Assembly (NCBI GenBank): GCA_013287135.1
Contig: JABDEK010000010.1
Span: 1 to 64,000 of the forward strand
Length of the DNA stretch: 64,000 bases
Source of the DNA: Acidobacteriota bacterium
GTDB taxonomy: Bacteria > Acidobacteriota > Terriglobia > Acidiferrales > UBA7541
Reading direction: 5' to 3'
The notes under the pieces: model-generated
Seen by the model: only the letters and a program-made list of their open reading frames with translations
Databases searched by the model: none
What the model was told of the DNA's origin: nothing
Shown: piece by piece, positions 51,354 through 59,995 of the stretch
How positions within the stretch are numbered: position 1 is the first letter of the stretch
Layout: each line of letters opens with the position of its first letter
Position numbers and translations under genes: made by a program

Positions 51354-51620
51354 ATGACTGACGAACAAAAGCCATCCGGCGCAGAGGAATTGCTCACCAA
51401 CGTTGCCACCACCATAGGCTCCGCCCTTGGTACCGTTGCCGCAAAGGTAAACGAATTCTCCAAGGTCGCGAGCGCGGAAGCCAAGCGCCAGCGGCCTCGC
51501 GCAAAGGCTAGAAAAAAATCGCGTCCGGCCAGCCGCTCAAAGCGAAAGGCCAAACCCGCAAAACGCGCCGCCAAATCCGCGGGTCGCAAGCGCCCCGCTC
51601 GTAAAAAATCCCGGCGTTAG
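51354..51620 (+). CDS. Histone H1-like basic protein
   Basis: 88 residues. The first 40 are acidic/neutral (AEELLTNVATTIGSALGTVAAKVNEFSKV, one amphipathic helix); the last 45 are a Lys/Arg/Ala/Pro tail (KARKKSRPASRSKRKAKPAKRAAKSAGRKRPARKKSRR, shown by composition) resembling histone H1 C-terminal tails. GGAG lies about 7 nt upstream of the ATG. It likely binds DNA without sequence preference and may compact the nucleoid. Next to a ferritin-like gene, a pairing reminiscent of Dps-style protection; that link is inferred. Confidence 0.75.
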   Translation: MTDEQKPSGAEELLTNVATTIGSALGTVAAKVNEFSKVASAEAKRQRPRAKARKKSRPASRSKRKAKPAKRAAKSAGRKRPARKKSRR

Positions 51621-52498: not shown

Positions 52499-53146
52499 CT
52501 ATTGCAATACATTCGATAGCGACTTGTAAATTTCCAACCCGCCTTTGTAGTTGTAAATGATGTATCCCAGTCTTCTGAATTTGTTCATGAAGAAGTTCAC
52601 GCGGGGCCTGGTGGTCCCAATCATTTCTGCCAGCGTGTCTTGCGTCACTCGCTGGAGGATCGACGGATTTTCGCTTCCCTTTTCATAATCGTTCAGCAGC
52701 AACAGTGCGCGCGCCAGTCTTTTTTCACTCGAATTGAATAAGTGGTCGATTAGATCCTGTTCGATGCGGTTGTTCCGCGACAGCAAATAATTGATGAATT
52801 GCGTACAGACGTGTGGCTCTTTCTCGATTAGGCGGATCATCTTCTTTCGCTCGATCACCATGATCTTGCTCGGCACCATCGTGATGGCCGATGTCTGATA
52901 AATGGCATGCCCCCCGATGCAGGCCTCCCCAAAGAAATCTCCTCGGCCCAGGAACCCTAGAACGCCGCTTCTCCCGCGCCGAGAAACCAGCACTAGCTTC
53001 ACTACTCCCTCTTGGATGTAATGCACGTCCTTGCACTGCTCTCCTTGAGAAAAAATCGTCTTGCTTGGTACGTATTCCACAACTGTGCCCGCCAATACTT
53101 TCGGGAAAATAATCTTCGTTGGTTTGCCGGGCTTGCTTGCCATCAT
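52499..53146 (-). CDS. Crp/Fnr-family transcription regulator
   Basis: 215 residues (two adjacent ATGs at 53146 and 53143; GAGGAAG upstream). N-terminal cyclic-nucleotide-like barrel: SKTIFSQGEQCKDVHYIQEGVVKLVLVSRRGRSGVLGFLGRGDFFGEACIGGHAIYQTSAITMVPSKIMVIERKKMI, lacking the Fnr cysteine set. C-terminal winged helix: RVTQDTLAEMIGTTRPRVNFFMNKFRRLGYI. The 'RPRVNFFMNKFRRLG' helix is typical of a Crp subgroup in Acidobacteriota. Two inverted repeats upstream (53202-53260) may be its own operators. Confidence 0.93.
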   Translation of the reverse strand: MMASKPGKPTKIIFPKVLAGTVVEYVPSKTIFSQGEQCKDVHYIQEGVVKLVLVSRRGRSGVLGFLGRGDFFGEACIGGHAIYQTSAITMVPSKIMVIERKKMIRLIEKEPHVCTQFINYLLSRNNRIEQDLIDHLFNSSEKRLARALLLLNDYEKGSENPSILQRVTQDTLAEMIGTTRPRVNFFMNKFRRLGYIIYNYKGGLEIYKSLSNVLQ

Positions 53147-53201
53147 TTCTTCCTCAACTTATACTTTGCTTTGCAAAATCGAATCATTGCTATATCACCT
53201 C

Positions 53202-53223
53202 CCGAACAATCTTGTATGTTCGG
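53202..53223. promoter_or_regulatory. Inverted repeat 1 upstream of the Crp/Fnr gene
   Basis: CCGAACA (53202-53208) and TGTTCGG (53217-53223) are perfect reverse complements with an 8-nt spacer, about 56 nt before the regulator's start codon. The position suits an operator over the promoter. Confidence 0.5.
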
Positions 53224-53226
53224 TCA

Positions 53227-53260
53227 ATTTTTGTCTGTCTAACATTGAACAGACAAAAAT
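53227..53260. promoter_or_regulatory. Inverted repeat 2 upstream of the Crp/Fnr gene
   Basis: ATTTTTGTCTGT (53227-53238) and ACAGACAAAAAT (53249-53260) are perfect 12-bp arms with a 10-nt spacer, 3 nt from repeat 1. The T/A-rich ends also allow a bidirectional terminator. It lies between the regulator and the small plus-strand gene at 53346, so could act on either. Confidence 0.5.
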
Positions 53261-53345
53261 CTTGATTGCCCCTATCCTGTCCAAGTCTTTTGCGTTCTTT
53301 TATCCTGGTAGATCGCAGGGGACTTGGAACTTACATCATCGCGCG

Positions 53346-53526
53346 ATGCCTAGTCTAGGGTTCGATATCTTCCGTACGCTCGACGACGGCCATCCTCTCT
53401 GGATTGCGGAAGTCGTAACTTTAAGCCAAAACAAACCTGCACGCTCTTGTTTTGAAGTCCCGCGGTAAATATTTCATCCGAGACGCTTCAACTAGAGAAA
53501 TCGTCTTCAAATTCGTATGCCCCTGA
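53346..53526 (+). pseudogene. Broken paralogue of the downstream micro-protein
   Basis: ATG 53346 opens FDIFRTLDDGHPLWIAEVVTL, then the frame is lost at 53424; one base on, a second frame continues AKTNLHALVLKSRGKYFIRDASTREIVFKFVCP to a stop at 53526. Aligned with the intact paralogue at 53701 (FDIFKRLRNGKPLWIT...), two Glu codons are missing plus one base, consistent with a 5-bp deletion. The first frame alone ends soon after as an unrelated tail. So a tandem duplicate that has been inactivated, unless frameshifting occurs. Confidence 0.7.
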
Positions 53527-53700
53527 TTAATCCTCCTTGCGCTACTCCCGTTCGGCTTGCAGAACGAAGAATTTTCTAAGCAGAATACTGTAGGCGATGC
53601 TCAACTTCCTCATTCTAAAGGCCTATTTAAGCCCCGTAGCTGGCAAGCAAGATGCCCGTTTGAAGCCTGAACGAAAGAGAAGAAACAACTAGGGGGCCTT

Positions 53701-53880
53701 ATGGAAAGCACTTTTGATATTTTCAAACGTCTGCGAAACGGAAAACCTCTATGGATCACTTCCGTGCCGGGTATTGAAGAAGCTCGCGTACGCGTGCACC
53801 GGTTGGGCGCTATTGCTCCCGGGGAATACTTGATTTACTCGCAGCTAAAAGGCGTGATCGTCGAATACGTGAACAACTAA
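53701..53880 (+). CDS. 59-residue conserved micro-protein
   Basis: Starts ATG 53701 with AGGGGG just upstream. Sequence layout: MESTFDIFKRLRNGKPLWIT, then EEARVRVHRLGAIAPGEYLIYSQ and a short strand GVIVEYV. The xFDIFxxLxxGxPLW start followed by an EEA helix and a GEYxIY strand recurs in its broken neighbour at 53346, so this is a genuine small-protein family, probably a beta-alpha-beta fold. Function unknown. Too short for usual ORF cut-offs. It precedes ppk1 by 139 nt. Confidence 0.75.
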   Translation: MESTFDIFKRLRNGKPLWITSVPGIEEARVRVHRLGAIAPGEYLIYSQLKGVIVEYVNN

Positions 53881-54019: not shown

Positions 54020-56194
54020 ATGTCGCGCAACAAGCTTGCGGACCCCAGCTTATTTTTGAACCGCCACTTTTCCTGGCTGCAATTCAACGAGCGCGTCCTG
54101 GAAGAAGCGCGTGACTCGAAGAATCCGCTACTTGAGCGCGTGAAATTCCTGGCCATCACCGCCAGCAATCTTGACGAATTCGTGGAAGTCCGTGTCGCTG
54201 GTCTTTTGCAGCAAGTGGAACACGGTATCCAGGACCCCGGCCCCGATGGCCGCAAACCGCGCGAAGTGCTCACCGAACTCGGCGTCCGAACGCACAAATT
54301 TGTAAAAGCTCAGTACGATTGCTGGCGCGAAGAGCTCGTTCCTTCTCTTCTTTCTGAGTCGATAAAGATCGTCACCATGCGCTCTCTGCGTCCCTCGGCC
54401 CGCGCCCATGTCGAAAACTTTTACTCCAAAACTGCCGAGCCGCTGCTCACGCCGGTAACCGTCGATCCCGCCCATCCATTTCCGCACGTAATTAATAAGG
54501 CGATTTGTCTAGCGTTTCTACTGTGTCGCAAAAAGCGTGGCTCGCAGCCCTATCTGGGAGTCGTCACCGTGCCGCGCGCTCTCCCGCGCTTGGTGCAGTT
54601 GCCCTCCTCCAACGGCTCCGTCGAATACGTTTTTCTTTCCGACGTAATTCACGCCTTCGCCGAACGCCTCTATCACGGATACGAAGTGCTTTCCGCAGCT
54701 GCCTTTCGCGTCACTCGTAACAGCAATCTTTATCTCGAAGCCGAGGAATCGCGGAGCATCATGGATTCGGTTGACGCCCAACTTCACCGCCGCAGAAAAG
54801 GTGAAGCCGTGCGTCTGGAAATCGAAGCCAGCGCGAATCAGGAAATTATCGACCGCCTGGTAGCCAATTTTCGTCTCGCACCCTGGCAAATTTTTTGTGT
54901 GGACGGCCCGCCCAATCTTTCGCGCATCGCCTATCTGTACGAAGCCATTCCTCGGCCCGACCTGAAATATCGCCCATTCATTCCCCGTGAGCTGGCGCTC
55001 AAGTCCGAGTCCGGCGCGCTCTTCGAGTTGATTCGGAAGCGCGACGTTTTGCTGCACCATCCGTACGACTCCTATTCGTCCGTGGTTCGCTTCATTGAAA
55101 GCGCTGCAACAGATCCCGACGTTCTCTCCATTAAACAAACGCTTTATCGCACCAGTGAAAATTCTCCCATCGTTCGTGCTTTGATCGAAGCCGCCTCCAA
55201 AAAGGAAGTCGCTGTCGTCGTGGAGCTCAAAGCTCGTTTCGACGAAGCTTCCAACATCCGCTGGGCGCGCAATCTGCAGGAAGCCGGTGTGCAGGTCTTC
55301 CACGGCGTGGTGGGCCTGAAAACGCATTGCAAACTAGCTCTCATCGCCCGTCGCGAACAAGGCGGCAAAATCCGCCAGTACGCGCATCTCGGTACCGGCA
55401 ATTACAATCCTTCCACCGCTCGTTACTACACCGATCTGAGTCTGCTTACATGCGATGGGCGTATAACCGCTTCCGTGCAACACGTCTTCAATTATTTGAC
55501 GGCTTACTCCGAACGCACGCAATACTTGCCGCTGTTTGTAGCGCCGCTGAATTTAGGAAGAAGCTGTCTGGACTTGATCGACCGCGAAACCGCCCACGCC
55601 CGCGCCGGACGCCCCGCGTTTATTCTCGCCAAAGTAAACGCCCTGCTCGACGAAAAAATCATTCAGGCTCTTTACCGCGCTTCGCAGGCCGGCGTGCAGA
55701 TTGAATTAATCGTGCGCGGCGCTTGTGCCTTGCGTCCGGGGGTTCGCGGAGCCAGCAGCCGCATTCGAGTCAGAAGTGTGGTGGGGCGTTTCCTGGAACA
55801 CAGCCGCGTTTTTGCTTTTGGTAATGGAGGTCATACCGAAATCTATCTGGGCAGCGCGGATTGGATGCAGAGAAATATTTACGAACGCGTGGAAGTCATG
55901 TTCCGCTTGAAAGATCCCGTTCTTTGCAGTCAGGTTTTCACGCAGGTTATTTCGCCCTATTTAGCGGACACGGAAAAAACTCGAGTCTTGCTTCCCAGCG
56001 GGGATTACGTTCGCGGGCACAAAGCGGGTCAGTTCTCCGCCTCGCGCAATGGATTCCGTTTCAACGCTCAGGAGTTTTTGATCGGCTTCACCGAATCTCG
56101 CGAGGACGAGCGAGTTTGGCCGATATTGCCAACTTACGTGAAACTCCCCGCAGTTCCCGAAGGCGCCAGAAAACCTCCGCCCCAATCGGCCTAA
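54020..56194 (+). CDS. ppk1: Polyphosphate kinase 1
   Basis: 724 residues. N domain: FLNRHFSWLQFNERVLEEARDSKNPLLERVKFLAITASNLDEFVEVRVAGL. Head domain follows, with FPHVINKAICLAF. Catalytic domains: ELKARFDEASNIRWARNLQEAGVQV, GLKTHCKLALIAR with the His (about 436) that is phosphorylated in E. coli PPK1 (His435), YAHLGTGNYNPSTARYYTDLSLLT, and FLEHSRVFAFGNG with the second active-site His. It reversibly makes polyphosphate from ATP, supporting stress survival. No exopolyphosphatase is adjacent. It converges on the BIG2 lipoprotein gene. Confidence 0.97.
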   Translation: MSRNKLADPSLFLNRHFSWLQFNERVLEEARDSKNPLLERVKFLAITASNLDEFVEVRVAGLLQQVEHGIQDPGPDGRKPREVLTELGVRTHKFVKAQYDCWREELVPSLLSESIKIVTMRSLRPSARAHVENFYSKTAEPLLTPVTVDPAHPFPHVINKAICLAFLLCRKKRGSQPYLGVVTVPRALPRLVQLPSSNGSVEYVFLSDVIHAFAERLYHGYEVLSAAAFRVTRNSNLYLEAEESRSIMDSVDAQLHRRRKGEAVRLEIEASANQEIIDRLVANFRLAPWQIFCVDGPPNLSRIAYLYEAIPRPDLKYRPFIPRELALKSESGALFELIRKRDVLLHHPYDSYSSVVRFIESAATDPDVLSIKQTLYRTSENSPIVRALIEAASKKEVAVVVELKARFDEASNIRWARNLQEAGVQVFHGVVGLKTHCKLALIARREQGGKIRQYAHLGTGNYNPSTARYYTDLSLLTCDGRITASVQHVFNYLTAYSERTQYLPLFVAPLNLGRSCLDLIDRETAHARAGRPAFILAKVNALLDEKIIQALYRASQAGVQIELIVRGACALRPGVRGASSRIRVRSVVGRFLEHSRVFAFGNGGHTEIYLGSADWMQRNIYERVEVMFRLKDPVLCSQVFTQVISPYLADTEKTRVLLPSGDYVRGHKAGQFSASRNGFRFNAQEFLIGFTESREDERVWPILPTYVKLPAVPEGARKPPPQSA

Positions 56195-56219: not shown

Positions 56220-59200
56220 TTACTTCGGCCCGTAAACGTCCAGCTCCGTCTGGGTACCGAGATACACTTTGCCGTTTGCAATGGTCGGCACCGCGAACTT
56301 CACAGCATTGCCCGCGGTATCGGTTCCCGTCTGGCTGCTATTCCACAACATGCTAAGAGTTCCCTCCTGGTAGGCATACAGCACAGCGGGTCCTAATGGG
56401 GTAGGCGGCGGTGTACCGAATGCGGATGTATCAACGGCCCATATAATTCCATTCGTGTTTCCGTTTGCCGAGGCTACCGGAGTACATCCCGGAAACGGGA
56501 ACGAGTGACCGGAAGTTTCGCTCGGTGAAGTCGACAATAGTCCATTACTCAAAGGAAATGCTTTCAGGGTATCTCCCGCGCCACAGAAATAGACTACGCC
56601 GTTGAAGTAGGCGGGCGCGCTCCATAGCCCGTTAATTTTATTCCCCTGAATCTCCTGCCTAATCTGTGGATCGCCGTTGTTACACGAAGTCTGGCAGTAG
56701 TGTAGATTCCCCGCTGTCATCTGATCCCGATTGATCACATAAATTGTCCCCTCTTTCCCCGCTTCAACCAGTTCATGCGTAACCCCGCCAGTCTGGTCCG
56801 GAAGTAAGAGGACACCGCCTGACCCCACATCCGTATCATTTTCGTCGAGGTTGCTCTGGTCAGAAGGAGTGAAATAGTCCATCAGAGACAGTCTAGAACT
56901 ATCTGTATTAAACAGATTCATTATCGTGTCGCCCAATTCCTGCGCCGGCACATTTACGGTATCGAAAAGGCCATTTCCAGAGGCGATAAAAATGTTTGCG
57001 TTTGAGTCCGCGGCAACTCCAGCGCCAGACATCCAAAAACCGCCTAGGGTGCTGTTCACGCTCCCGTTGGGAGTTGTGATGAAGAGAGATGTTTGAGTGA
57101 ACGTGCTGGCATTGTAGGCAAAAAGCCAACCGTGATAAGGCCAGTAGTCACAATGAGAGGCATAAGCCAGGTAAATAGACCCATTCAACAAAAGCAATCC
57201 GGGACGATTCAAGTGATGTAGTCCGTCCAAAGTTACCGTCGTCCCGCCGTCACCAGTCCCCGGAACCGTCGCCGTGATTTGCACCGGCCCCGGCGACTTT
57301 TCCGCTCCAGTCGTGATATCGATCGCGTGTAACCGGTGAATAATATTTCCGTTCTCCTTGGATTTCGCTTCCACATACATCGTCCCGCTGCTCGGGTCGA
57401 TTACCGGCGTACTTGTAATGCCCACCTGTGGAACCAAGTCAGTGCAACCAGCGCCAAGTTCCGCCTGAATATTCACGGTTGTTGCGCCGGACGCGGTCCC
57501 GTGAGCCGTATCGATCAAGCTCGCATGCCACAATAATCCTGCATTCGTTCCCGTATTGCTGTCGGCGTCAAACGCGTAAACGCTGTCGCCTTCCGTCGCC
57601 ACATAAATCACATTGTGCGTGCCTCCCGCGATCGTCACGTTCGGCACGTACAACGGCTGCGCATAAATAAATCCATCCACCGCTTGCGAAAACAACTTTC
57701 CGAAACTCGCCGTGTTCACGTTCGTCGGAGTCAGAATGCTCTCGCTCAAATTCTGTCCCGTCCGCGCAATGTCATTGTGTTGCGTAAACACGCCCGCAAA
57801 TCCAATGCTGTTGCTCGTTTGATTCGTCACGCTCAAAATCGACACGCCTTTCGTCGATCCCATCACCGCTTGTATCGATGTAAAGCCCGCGTTCACTCCG
57901 CTTCCCAACGTTCCGCTCGTCGCCACGCCAGACGCACTAACGGAAGCCACGCCCGAATTCGAAGAGGTCCAGGTTGTCGTAGCGGTCAGATTTTGTGTGC
58001 TCCCATCGCTGTAATGCCCGGTGGCAGTGAACGCCTGCGTTGCTCCATTGTCGGCAATCGAAGGATTCTGCGGGCTCACCACGATCACCTGAAGTGAAAC
58101 CGCGCTCACCGTCAGCGTTGTCGAGCCTTGCACAGATCCCAGCATCGCCTGAATTGTTGTAGTTCCGTTCACCACGGCGATAGCCAGACCATCTGTCCCA
58201 GCCGTATTGCTGATCGTCGCAATGTTCATTTGGCTGGAACTCCACGTGACCGTGGTCGTCAGATTTTGCGTGCTGCTGTCCGAATACGTGCCGGTAGCCG
58301 TGAATTGTTCCGTGCCGGTTGTCCCGATGGTTGGGTTCGCCGGTGTAACAGCAATCGAAACCAGCGTTGCCACGGTTACTGTCAGTGTTGCTGAACCGTT
58401 CACCGCTCCCAAAACCGCCTTAATACTGCTCGTCCCCGTTCCTACCGCGGTAACCATCCCGCCTGCAGTAATCGTTGCCACACCCGTACTCTGTGAACTC
58501 CAAGTCACCGAGCTCGTAATGTTCTGCGTGGAGTTATCCGAATAAGTGCCAGTGGCCGTGAATTGCTCGGAAGTCCCCTTCGCAATCGACAAATTCGGCG
58601 CCATCACCGCAATCGAAACCAGCGTTGCCGCCGTCACCGTCAAAATCGCGGACCCGCTGACCGCTCCCGAAACCGCCTTAATACTGCTCGTCCCCGTTCC
58701 TACCGCAGTAACCATCCCGCCGGCAGTAATCGTCGCCACATTCGTACTTTGTGAACTCCAGGTCACCGAGCTCGTAATGTTCTGCGTGGAGTTATCCGAA
58801 TAAGTGCCAGTGGCGGTGAGCTGCTCGGAAGTCCCCTTTGCAATCGACAAACTCGGCGCCGTAACCGCAATCGAAACCAGCGTCGCGGATGTCACCGTCA
58901 AAGTCGCCGACCCACTAATGGCTCCCGAGACCGCCTGAATTTTGCTCGTCCCAGCCCCTGCCGCAGTAACCATCCCGCCTGCAGTAATCGTCGCCACGCC
59001 CTCGCTCTGTGAACTCCAAGTCACCGAACTCGTGAGGTTTTGCGTGGAGTTATCCGAATAAGTGCCAGTGGCGGTGAACTGCTCGGAACTCCCCTTCGCA
59101 ATCGACAAATTCGGCGCCGTCACGGCAATCGAAACCAGCGTTGCTGCAGTCACCGTCAAAGTTGCCGACCCGCTTACATTTCCCGAAGCAGCTTGAATCT

Positions 59201-59768
59201 TGGTTGTCCCTGGTGCCAACCCCATCGCCAATCCACCCGCAGTGATCATCGCCACGTTCATGGTCTGCGACGTCCAGGTCACCGAGTTCGTCAGGTTCTG
59301 CGTCGAATTGTCCGAGAAAGTTCCCGTCGCAGTAAACTGCGCAGTCGTCCCTTTCGCAATCGAAAGACTGGAAGCCGTCAAAGCAATCGATACCAACGTT
59401 GCGGAAGTTACAGTGAGTGTCGCCGACCCCACCACCGTTCCCGAAACCGCCTGAATCGTGCTCCTACCAGCGCCCGCCGCTGTTAGCAATCCCCCTGCGG
59501 CAATCGTCGCCACACCCGTATTCTGCGAACTCCAGGTCACCGAACTCGTCAAGTTTTGTGTAGTTTGATCCGAATAAGTGCCCGTCGCCGTGATTTGCTC
59601 GGAAGTTCCCTTCGCCATCGATAGACTTGGCGCCGTTACCGCGATCGAAACCAAGGTAGGATGGTGGTTCGAAGATGGTGAAAATGAGCAGCTTGACATC
59701 AACGCGATCACGCACAGCAAAGCGACAACGGTACTCCCTTTAAGAGCCCAGTGTTGCGAACCCAGCAT
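56220..59768 (-). CDS. Lipoprotein with seven BIG2 Ig-like repeats and a PQQ-like beta-propeller
   Basis: 1182 residues from MLGSQHWALK (AAGGGGAA upstream; the longer frame to 59870 is not used). A lipobox places the lipidated Cys at 27 (LMSSC). Seven BIG2-type bacterial Ig modules of about 86 residues follow, each with the pattern TLVSIAVTxxxLSIAKGT..QFTATGTYSDNSTQNLT..VTWSS...ATIxAGG....G.xxIxA..G...GSATLTVT. The last 540 residues are a PQQ-type propeller (FTQHNDIARTGQNLSESILTPTNVN..FGKLFSQAVDGFIYAQPLYVPNV..NVIYVATEGDSVYAFDAD). Likely a surface-exposed binding or stalk protein. Confidence 0.9.
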   Translation of the reverse strand: MLGSQHWALKGSTVVALLCVIALMSSCSFSPSSNHHPTLVSIAVTAPSLSMAKGTSEQITATGTYSDQTTQNLTSSVTWSSQNTGVATIAAGGLLTAAGAGRSTIQAVSGTVVGSATLTVTSATLVSIALTASSLSIAKGTTAQFTATGTFSDNSTQNLTNSVTWTSQTMNVAMITAGGLAMGLAPGTTKIQAASGNVSGSATLTVTAATLVSIAVTAPNLSIAKGSSEQFTATGTYSDNSTQNLTSSVTWSSQSEGVATITAGGMVTAAGAGTSKIQAVSGAISGSATLTVTSATLVSIAVTAPSLSIAKGTSEQLTATGTYSDNSTQNITSSVTWSSQSTNVATITAGGMVTAVGTGTSSIKAVSGAVSGSAILTVTAATLVSIAVMAPNLSIAKGTSEQFTATGTYSDNSTQNITSSVTWSSQSTGVATITAGGMVTAVGTGTSSIKAVLGAVNGSATLTVTVATLVSIAVTPANPTIGTTGTEQFTATGTYSDSSTQNLTTTVTWSSSQMNIATISNTAGTDGLAIAVVNGTTTIQAMLGSVQGSTTLTVSAVSLQVIVVSPQNPSIADNGATQAFTATGHYSDGSTQNLTATTTWTSSNSGVASVSASGVATSGTLGSGVNAGFTSIQAVMGSTKGVSILSVTNQTSNSIGFAGVFTQHNDIARTGQNLSESILTPTNVNTASFGKLFSQAVDGFIYAQPLYVPNVTIAGGTHNVIYVATEGDSVYAFDADSNTGTNAGLLWHASLIDTAHGTASGATTVNIQAELGAGCTDLVPQVGITSTPVIDPSSGTMYVEAKSKENGNIIHRLHAIDITTGAEKSPGPVQITATVPGTGDGGTTVTLDGLHHLNRPGLLLLNGSIYLAYASHCDYWPYHGWLFAYNASTFTQTSLFITTPNGSVNSTLGGFWMSGAGVAADSNANIFIASGNGLFDTVNVPAQELGDTIMNLFNTDSSRLSLMDYFTPSDQSNLDENDTDVGSGGVLLLPDQTGGVTHELVEAGKEGTIYVINRDQMTAGNLHYCQTSCNNGDPQIRQEIQGNKINGLWSAPAYFNGVVYFCGAGDTLKAFPLSNGLLSTSPSETSGHSFPFPGCTPVASANGNTNGIIWAVDTSAFGTPPPTPLGPAVLYAYQEGTLSMLWNSSQTGTDTAGNAVKFAVPTIANGKVYLGTQTELDVYGPK
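57820..59665 (-). repeat. 258-bp tandem DNA repeats encoding the BIG2 modules
   Basis: The base run TCCG within the SDN codons recurs at 58279, 58537, 58795, 59053, 59311 and 59569, exactly 258 bp (86 codons) apart. The seventh unit is 15 bp longer. Units four and five share near-identical stretches, so the array may expand or contract by recombination. Confidence 0.9.
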
Positions 59769-59995
59769 CTTGCATTCCCCTTGATATGAAGAAGCTTCGG
59801 ATATTGCGGCCGCACCTTGGATGCTTAGACACACTGCGGCGTTACGCGGAGGGACGATCCGAGGACGCAATTATAACAACTTCTCTTTTTCCAACAAGTA
59901 GTCAAAGGTACAGTATTGTGAAAAGACTAACCATACCTGGGCAACTCCATATCGAACCGGGTACCGCTCGTCACTGAAGCCGTTATAATCCGCCC

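Follow-up and report, generated by a model that had tools for sequence, protein, structure and literature searches.

The 64,000-nucleotide stretch of DNA analysed here (the window; positions 1-64,000 of JABDEK010000010.1, assembly GCA_013287135.1, Acidobacteriota bacterium of the lineage Terriglobia; Acidiferrales; UBA7541) carries a tandem pair of very short genes belonging to an expanded domain family for which no Pfam or NCBIfam model was found. As judged by structure prediction, the members of this family are domains of approximately 55 residues with a beta-beta-alpha-beta-beta order. The domain is proposed to function as a small protein-protein signalling adaptor which, at this locus, would serve as a partner and feedback modulator of a Crp/Fnr regulator under a common operator; the probability of this reading is estimated at about 40%. 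Put simply, the findings suggest that a tiny protein helps to control the bacterial switch proteins beside which it is encoded. The new part is the domain family itself, small signalling adaptors being an already known type; genes this short readily escape notice, and no model for the family exists in the libraries searched. The features of the locus are as follows.

52499-53146, minus strand: Crp/Fnr-family regulator, divergent from copy 1 (PF00027, cNMP-binding, 63.1 bits against a cut-off of 27.5; PF13545, Crp-type HTH, 41.3 bits against 27; orthologs lie beside family genes)
53227-53260, unstranded: presumed operator, a palindrome in the gap that separates copy 1 from the Crp/Fnr gene (inverted repeat; strict pattern in relatives)
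53280-53328, unstranded: second inverted repeat, imperfect (79%; 19-nt pair 53280-53298/53310-53328)
53346-53469, plus strand: copy 1, N-terminal half of a disrupted family gene, frame 1 (75% identity, over 28 aa, with its intact counterpart in relatives G004 and G019)
53434-53526, plus strand: copy 1, C-terminal half, read in a second frame (62% identity with the intact orthologs across 21 aa)
53701-53880, plus strand: copy 2, intact 59-aa family protein, MESTFDIFKRL...GEYLIYSQ... (open reading frame, ribosome-binding site, orthologs, dN/dS, AlphaFold2 model)
54020-56194, plus strand: polyphosphate kinase 1 (PPK1), downstream neighbour (TIGR03705, 865.5 bits; same order in three close relatives)

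The initial annotation had described copy 2 as an intact 59-residue gene with a good ribosome-binding site, and this description held: an AGGGGG lies a few bases 5' of the ATG. Orthologs with 81-84% protein identity were found in three other genomes (Acidobacteria bacterium MAG isolates palsa_134, palsa_289 and palsa_348), and a search with the single copy 2 sequence matched 14 of 41 genomes (the 40 nearest and the window's own), returning both paralogs and orthologs at E values of 1e-3 to 1e-29. Comparison of copy 2 with its G004 ortholog in the stated frame gave 30.3 changes per approximately 41 synonymous sites and 11.7 per approximately 133 nonsynonymous sites (pS 0.73, pN 0.09), such that approximately 30 of 42 substitutions are synonymous; the pattern was reversed in the two shifted frames that served as the control. 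With this excess confined to the stated frame, and the identity retained in three genomes, copy 2 is, by its pattern of substitution, a real coding gene above chance expectation, and its reading as a spurious open reading frame was ruled out by the same pattern and control. A dN/dS of approximately 0.03-0.05 against two relatives marks it as a diverged duplicate under strong purifying selection.

The neighbouring copy 1 had been recognized as a broken gene sharing the pattern of copy 2, and both halves of the domain are indeed present in two frames; positions 53346-53469 read MPSLGFDIFRTLDDGHPLWIAEVVTLSQ..., the second half (...GKYFIRDASTREIVF...) starts at 53434 in a different frame, and the family profile matches each half separately. 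The tandem pair claimed earlier is retained in G004 and G019. The break, by comparison, is a property of the window, as copy 1 is intact in both relatives; a programmed frameshift was rejected because these relatives carry it in a single frame. Differences between the copy 1 halves and G004 are mainly synonymous (pS 0.71, pN 0.13), with values similar to those of the adjacent Crp/Fnr gene (pS 0.70, pN 0.13). The halves thus still look constrained in the window, and this argues that the disruption is recent or an error of assembly rather than the result of old decay.

Profiles of the family, whose domain has the sequence pattern YDIF...W...GEY, were built from 28 and then 76 members, the latter representing an alignment of 108 rows thinned by similarity, and copy 2, itself one of the rows, matched the 76-row profile over its full length (E 6.8e-22). 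The prospect raised by the initial annotation that homologues might be lacking outside this locus was contradicted by profile searches of the window's taxonomic family, where the domain was found in 56 of 89 genomes with as many as 22 matches in one of them (G222). Of 399 genomes that sampled the class, 64 also carry it (58 in the window's family and six in three other families), and in two draws from the phylum, which sampled few genomes of the window's family, one of 149 and one of 396 genomes matched, both being the window's own. None of the 76 members matched NCBIfam at an E value of 0.01 or better, and three Pfam models were each matched by a single member (E 0.0038 to 0.0093), with PF13104 (DUF3956), the only one of the three for which a cut-off was printed, scoring below it. 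A known family was rejected as the identity of copy 2, given a best Pfam match below cut-off, a best PHROGs match at E 0.045 and no NCBIfam match; likewise, its reading as a phage, plasmid or viral gene was set aside after searches of such collections with the single copy 2 sequence returned no match. A limited library of papers yielded no description of the family. The existence of the family is well supported, and the suspicion from the outset that it might be undescribed is supported by the Pfam, NCBIfam and literature searches; unknown families from uncultivated taxa are catalogued in FESNov (PMC10849945). The further notion of a family of microproteins was borne out by the stand-alone tiny proteins but proved too narrow, the domain also being fused to receiver-like domains. 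A second, divergent member (LGLPFCILKL...) was observed in recurrent pairs, beside either a pseudo-receiver fusion or another member, at four loci (L102, L103, L104 and L105), and such pairs occur in several genomes of one genus. Separately, the title of one record, Betaproteobacteria bacterium (L113, CAJCHZ010000054.1), looks wrong; compare G219, which is placed in the window's Acidobacterial family.

The initial annotation placed the pair next to a Crp/Fnr regulator with two inverted repeats. The regulator, recognized by two Pfam models, and both repeats are present, but only the first repeat is conserved; it comprises a perfect 12-nt inverted pair (53227-53238/53249-53260; scan of 53120-53720) with the core 53233-53254 reading GTCTGTCTAACATTGAACAGAC. 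The second was not found in relatives and is probably a product of chance. The TGT-N10-ACA geometry of the palindrome matches that of the CRP site. Among the 89 genomes, seven of the nine closest Crp/Fnr orthologs, spanning three genera, have a family gene as their divergent neighbour (G000, G004, G019, G011, G012, G239 and G222); the ortholog of G002 has a family gene approximately 1.6 kb away, and that of G015 is cut off by a contig end, the contig with copy 2 in this genome beginning just before copy 2. The strict palindrome (GTCTGTNNAANNTTNNACAGAC, zero mismatches) occurs once each in six of the nine ortholog genomes, each time just upstream of the Crp ortholog, and is absent from the 80 other genomes of the family, with the provision that the orthologs are not independent observations. 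It is missing at the orthologs of G002, G011 and G012, the last two having a weaker palindrome (15 and 16 of 20 positions). Ten of the 16 genomes with palindrome matches carry one-mismatch sites only, and tblastn of the flanks fetched around these sites (loci of nine of the ten genomes) detected no relative of the window's Crp/Fnr protein. A scan for sigma-70 promoters and terminators returned the numbers expected by chance, and the copy to which the palindrome belongs, copy 1, is the one disrupted in the window genome.

In the arrangement that we infer, as regards operator function, protein partner and direction of effect alike, the Crp/Fnr regulator would bind the palindrome at 53227-53260 and control its own gene together with copy 1, which diverges from it. 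The microprotein would then bind to this regulator, or to a different signalling protein, whose activity it would tune as a feedback co-regulator, a role that may fall to copy 1 and perhaps to copy 2 as well.

The principal alternative is that the microprotein is a mere target of the Crp/Fnr regulator, a stress-response effector acting, for example, on polyphosphate kinase or the cell envelope, with no feedback. This agrees with the position of the palindrome between the regulator and the microprotein gene and with the composition of the locus, where G004 and G019 retain the arrangement of SpoIIE-type phosphatase, YtxH, ferritin-like, BON, Crp/Fnr, copy 1, copy 2 and PPK1. However, PPK1 adjoins the pair in close relatives only, whereas other genera and families also show the Crp/Fnr neighbour and the receiver-type fusions, and a simple effector is judged unlikely, albeit the most serious of the alternatives. 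Two other genes of the locus were noted in passing. An 88-residue Lys/Arg/Ala-rich protein encoded between the ferritin-like and BON genes (51354-51620, plus strand) resembles a histone H1 tail by eye and has no Pfam match; downstream of PPK1, a 1216-residue protein (56220-59870, minus strand) with several similar Ig-like repeats, again by eye, is kept in close relatives.

The proposal of a signalling adaptor draws further on gene neighbourhoods across the family, with genes delimited by the simple rule of taking the longest open reading frame. One hundred loci were picked from the matches in the 89 genomes, and two neighbour groups dominate: receiver/kinase/PilZ-like proteins (30 loci) and Crp/Fnr proteins (15 loci, with 12 of 17 genes directly adjacent). 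In a Pfam check of ten neighbours, the sole PilZ-like protein tested did not reach the cut-off; the check also brought up GGDEF proteins. Genes of the Crp/Fnr, receiver, kinase or PilZ class account for 28 of 204 adjacent genes compared to 6 of 307 background genes (20 regions of the same genomes), where the Crp and PilZ counts are circular because these very neighbours had served as seeds for the class models, and the receiver and kinase enrichments are weak when taken singly (p of approximately 0.05 or worse). A Crp/Fnr or two-component-type gene lies within two genes at only 35 of the 100 loci; most members have none adjacent. With PF00027 as an independent model, 12 of 60 family domains (nine loci) have a cNMP domain at a distance of 1.5 kb or less, compared to 0.4 expected, in a set of 14 genomes of which at least 11 were chosen because such a neighbour had already been seen; this tally covers 60 of 62 family domains and the cNMP positions of 10 of the 14 genomes, with partial second-domain rows omitted, and inspection by eye of the other four revealed no cNMP domain within 1.5 kb. 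Outside the window's taxonomic family, a Crp/Fnr-like gene lies directly upstream of the family gene at one locus (L252).

A C-terminal domain of approximately 110 residues is carried by 22 of the 116 family open reading frames at the 100 loci, a share that is not a census as long open frames were picked first, and the same domain was found at five of 12 further loci; one fusion comes from another taxonomic family (L249, genome G523, family f77). Pfam did not recognize this domain in the six such proteins scanned. Its predicted model has the topology of a receiver and aligned with the receivers 3dgf and 3a0u over 109 residues with a Z of 16.0 and an rmsd of 1.7-2.0 (1.7 for 3dgf). In all 17 aligned fusions, the aspartate that serves as phosphoacceptor in PF00072 is replaced by glycine, the position having been assigned by a profile alignment to receivers with a probability of only 25.8%. 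On account of the modelled receiver fold and this glycine, the fused domain is regarded as a pseudo-receiver by predicted fold and residue rather than by sequence search. At another locus (L072), a true receiver (61.1 bits) is joined to a C-terminal family domain; there, a stop codon directly precedes the receiver and no in-frame start is present (L072:6999-7571, minus strand), and the fusion may therefore be broken or misassembled.

With the family domain of L072 in the C-terminal output position, members could be viewed as small nucleic-acid-binding output modules that act directly on DNA or RNA, and beta-beta-alpha folds can bind DNA. Unlike the classic receiver-output layout, however, the partner is C-terminal and lacks a phosphoacceptor in the 22 of 116 members noted above, and the near-invariant residues of the domain are alanine and leucine, with no conserved basic motif apparent; direct action on nucleic acid is thus considered improbable. 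As an adaptor, the domain would instead serve on its own, as a microprotein, or else make up one of the two domains of a protein whose other domain is a receiver or pseudo-receiver.

Structure prediction, which the initial annotation had called for, returned a confident fold for the 59-aa protein (AlphaFold2 with 28 rows; beta-beta-alpha-beta-beta, pLDDT 93.1, pTM 0.78). In the 76-row alignment, conservation reaches 90% at only Ala28 and Leu35, and no set of catalytic residues is found among the conserved positions; the restriction to these two residues speaks for a binding module over an enzyme. Fold searches with the model gave nothing above background, and a profile search of solved structures gave weak matches only (best E 0.044). 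The best fold rows were T4 Dmd, at a Z of 6.3 and an rmsd of 2.4 over 56, and AcrIF9, at a Z of 5.6-6.0, with a Foldseek E of 0.18, values that fall within background according to the tool's own note (E 0.18 and Z below 8); transthyretin and the Rubisco small subunit scored nearly as high, and none of the four was accepted as a relative at such scores. That Dmd and AcrIF9 are among the nearest solved folds might point to an antitoxin-like or anti-phage inhibitor protein, a very improbable identity given these near ties with unrelated folds, the empty phage, plasmid and viral searches and the regulators found as neighbours. Least credible of all is a conserved noise or decaying duplicate without function, to which the confinement of the family to one lineage and the frameshifted copy in the window assembly might be attributed, and which the substitution pattern of copy 2 already contradicts, together with its dN/dS, the kept synteny, the confident predicted fold and the many paralogs.

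A broader form of the adaptor proposal may be framed, in which this class-restricted, expanded domain (as searched within the phylum) is an exchangeable adaptor for Crp/Fnr regulators, receivers and pseudo-receivers and acts here as a dedicated co-regulator, the regulator's only strict genomic operator being common with the microprotein gene; it is advanced tentatively and is, in full, doubtful. The presence of the domain beside Crp/Fnr genes and its fusion to receivers devoid of the phosphoacceptor suggest that the mostly uncultivated Acidobacteriota of soil and peat possess a level of signalling control of their own, for which the single-operator divergon would provide a compact test system.

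Four known systems bear comparison. The Pfam family approached by copy 2, PF13104 (DUF3956), is matched weakly and in part (16.6 bits over 20 residues, below the gathering cut-off of 22.3 bits), and only one of the 76 members matches it at an E value of 0.01. T4/RB69 Dmd and AcrIF9 have a similar order of strands and helix and align with the family domain over nearly its full length (Z 5.6-6.3), but they differ in identity (5-12%, with no sequence relation and an E of 0.18 or worse) and in genomic setting. CheY-like receivers and pseudo-receivers, such as that of CikA, which appeared among the Foldseek rows for the fused domain, resemble this partner in predicted receiver fold and missing phosphoacceptor aspartate; the family domain itself is no receiver and stands alone at the window locus. 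Finally, systems in which Crp/Fnr and a divergent partner are served by a common operator have the same divergent layout, with one TGT-N10-ACA palindrome in between, and differ from the present locus in that the presumptive partner here is an undescribed 55-residue domain.
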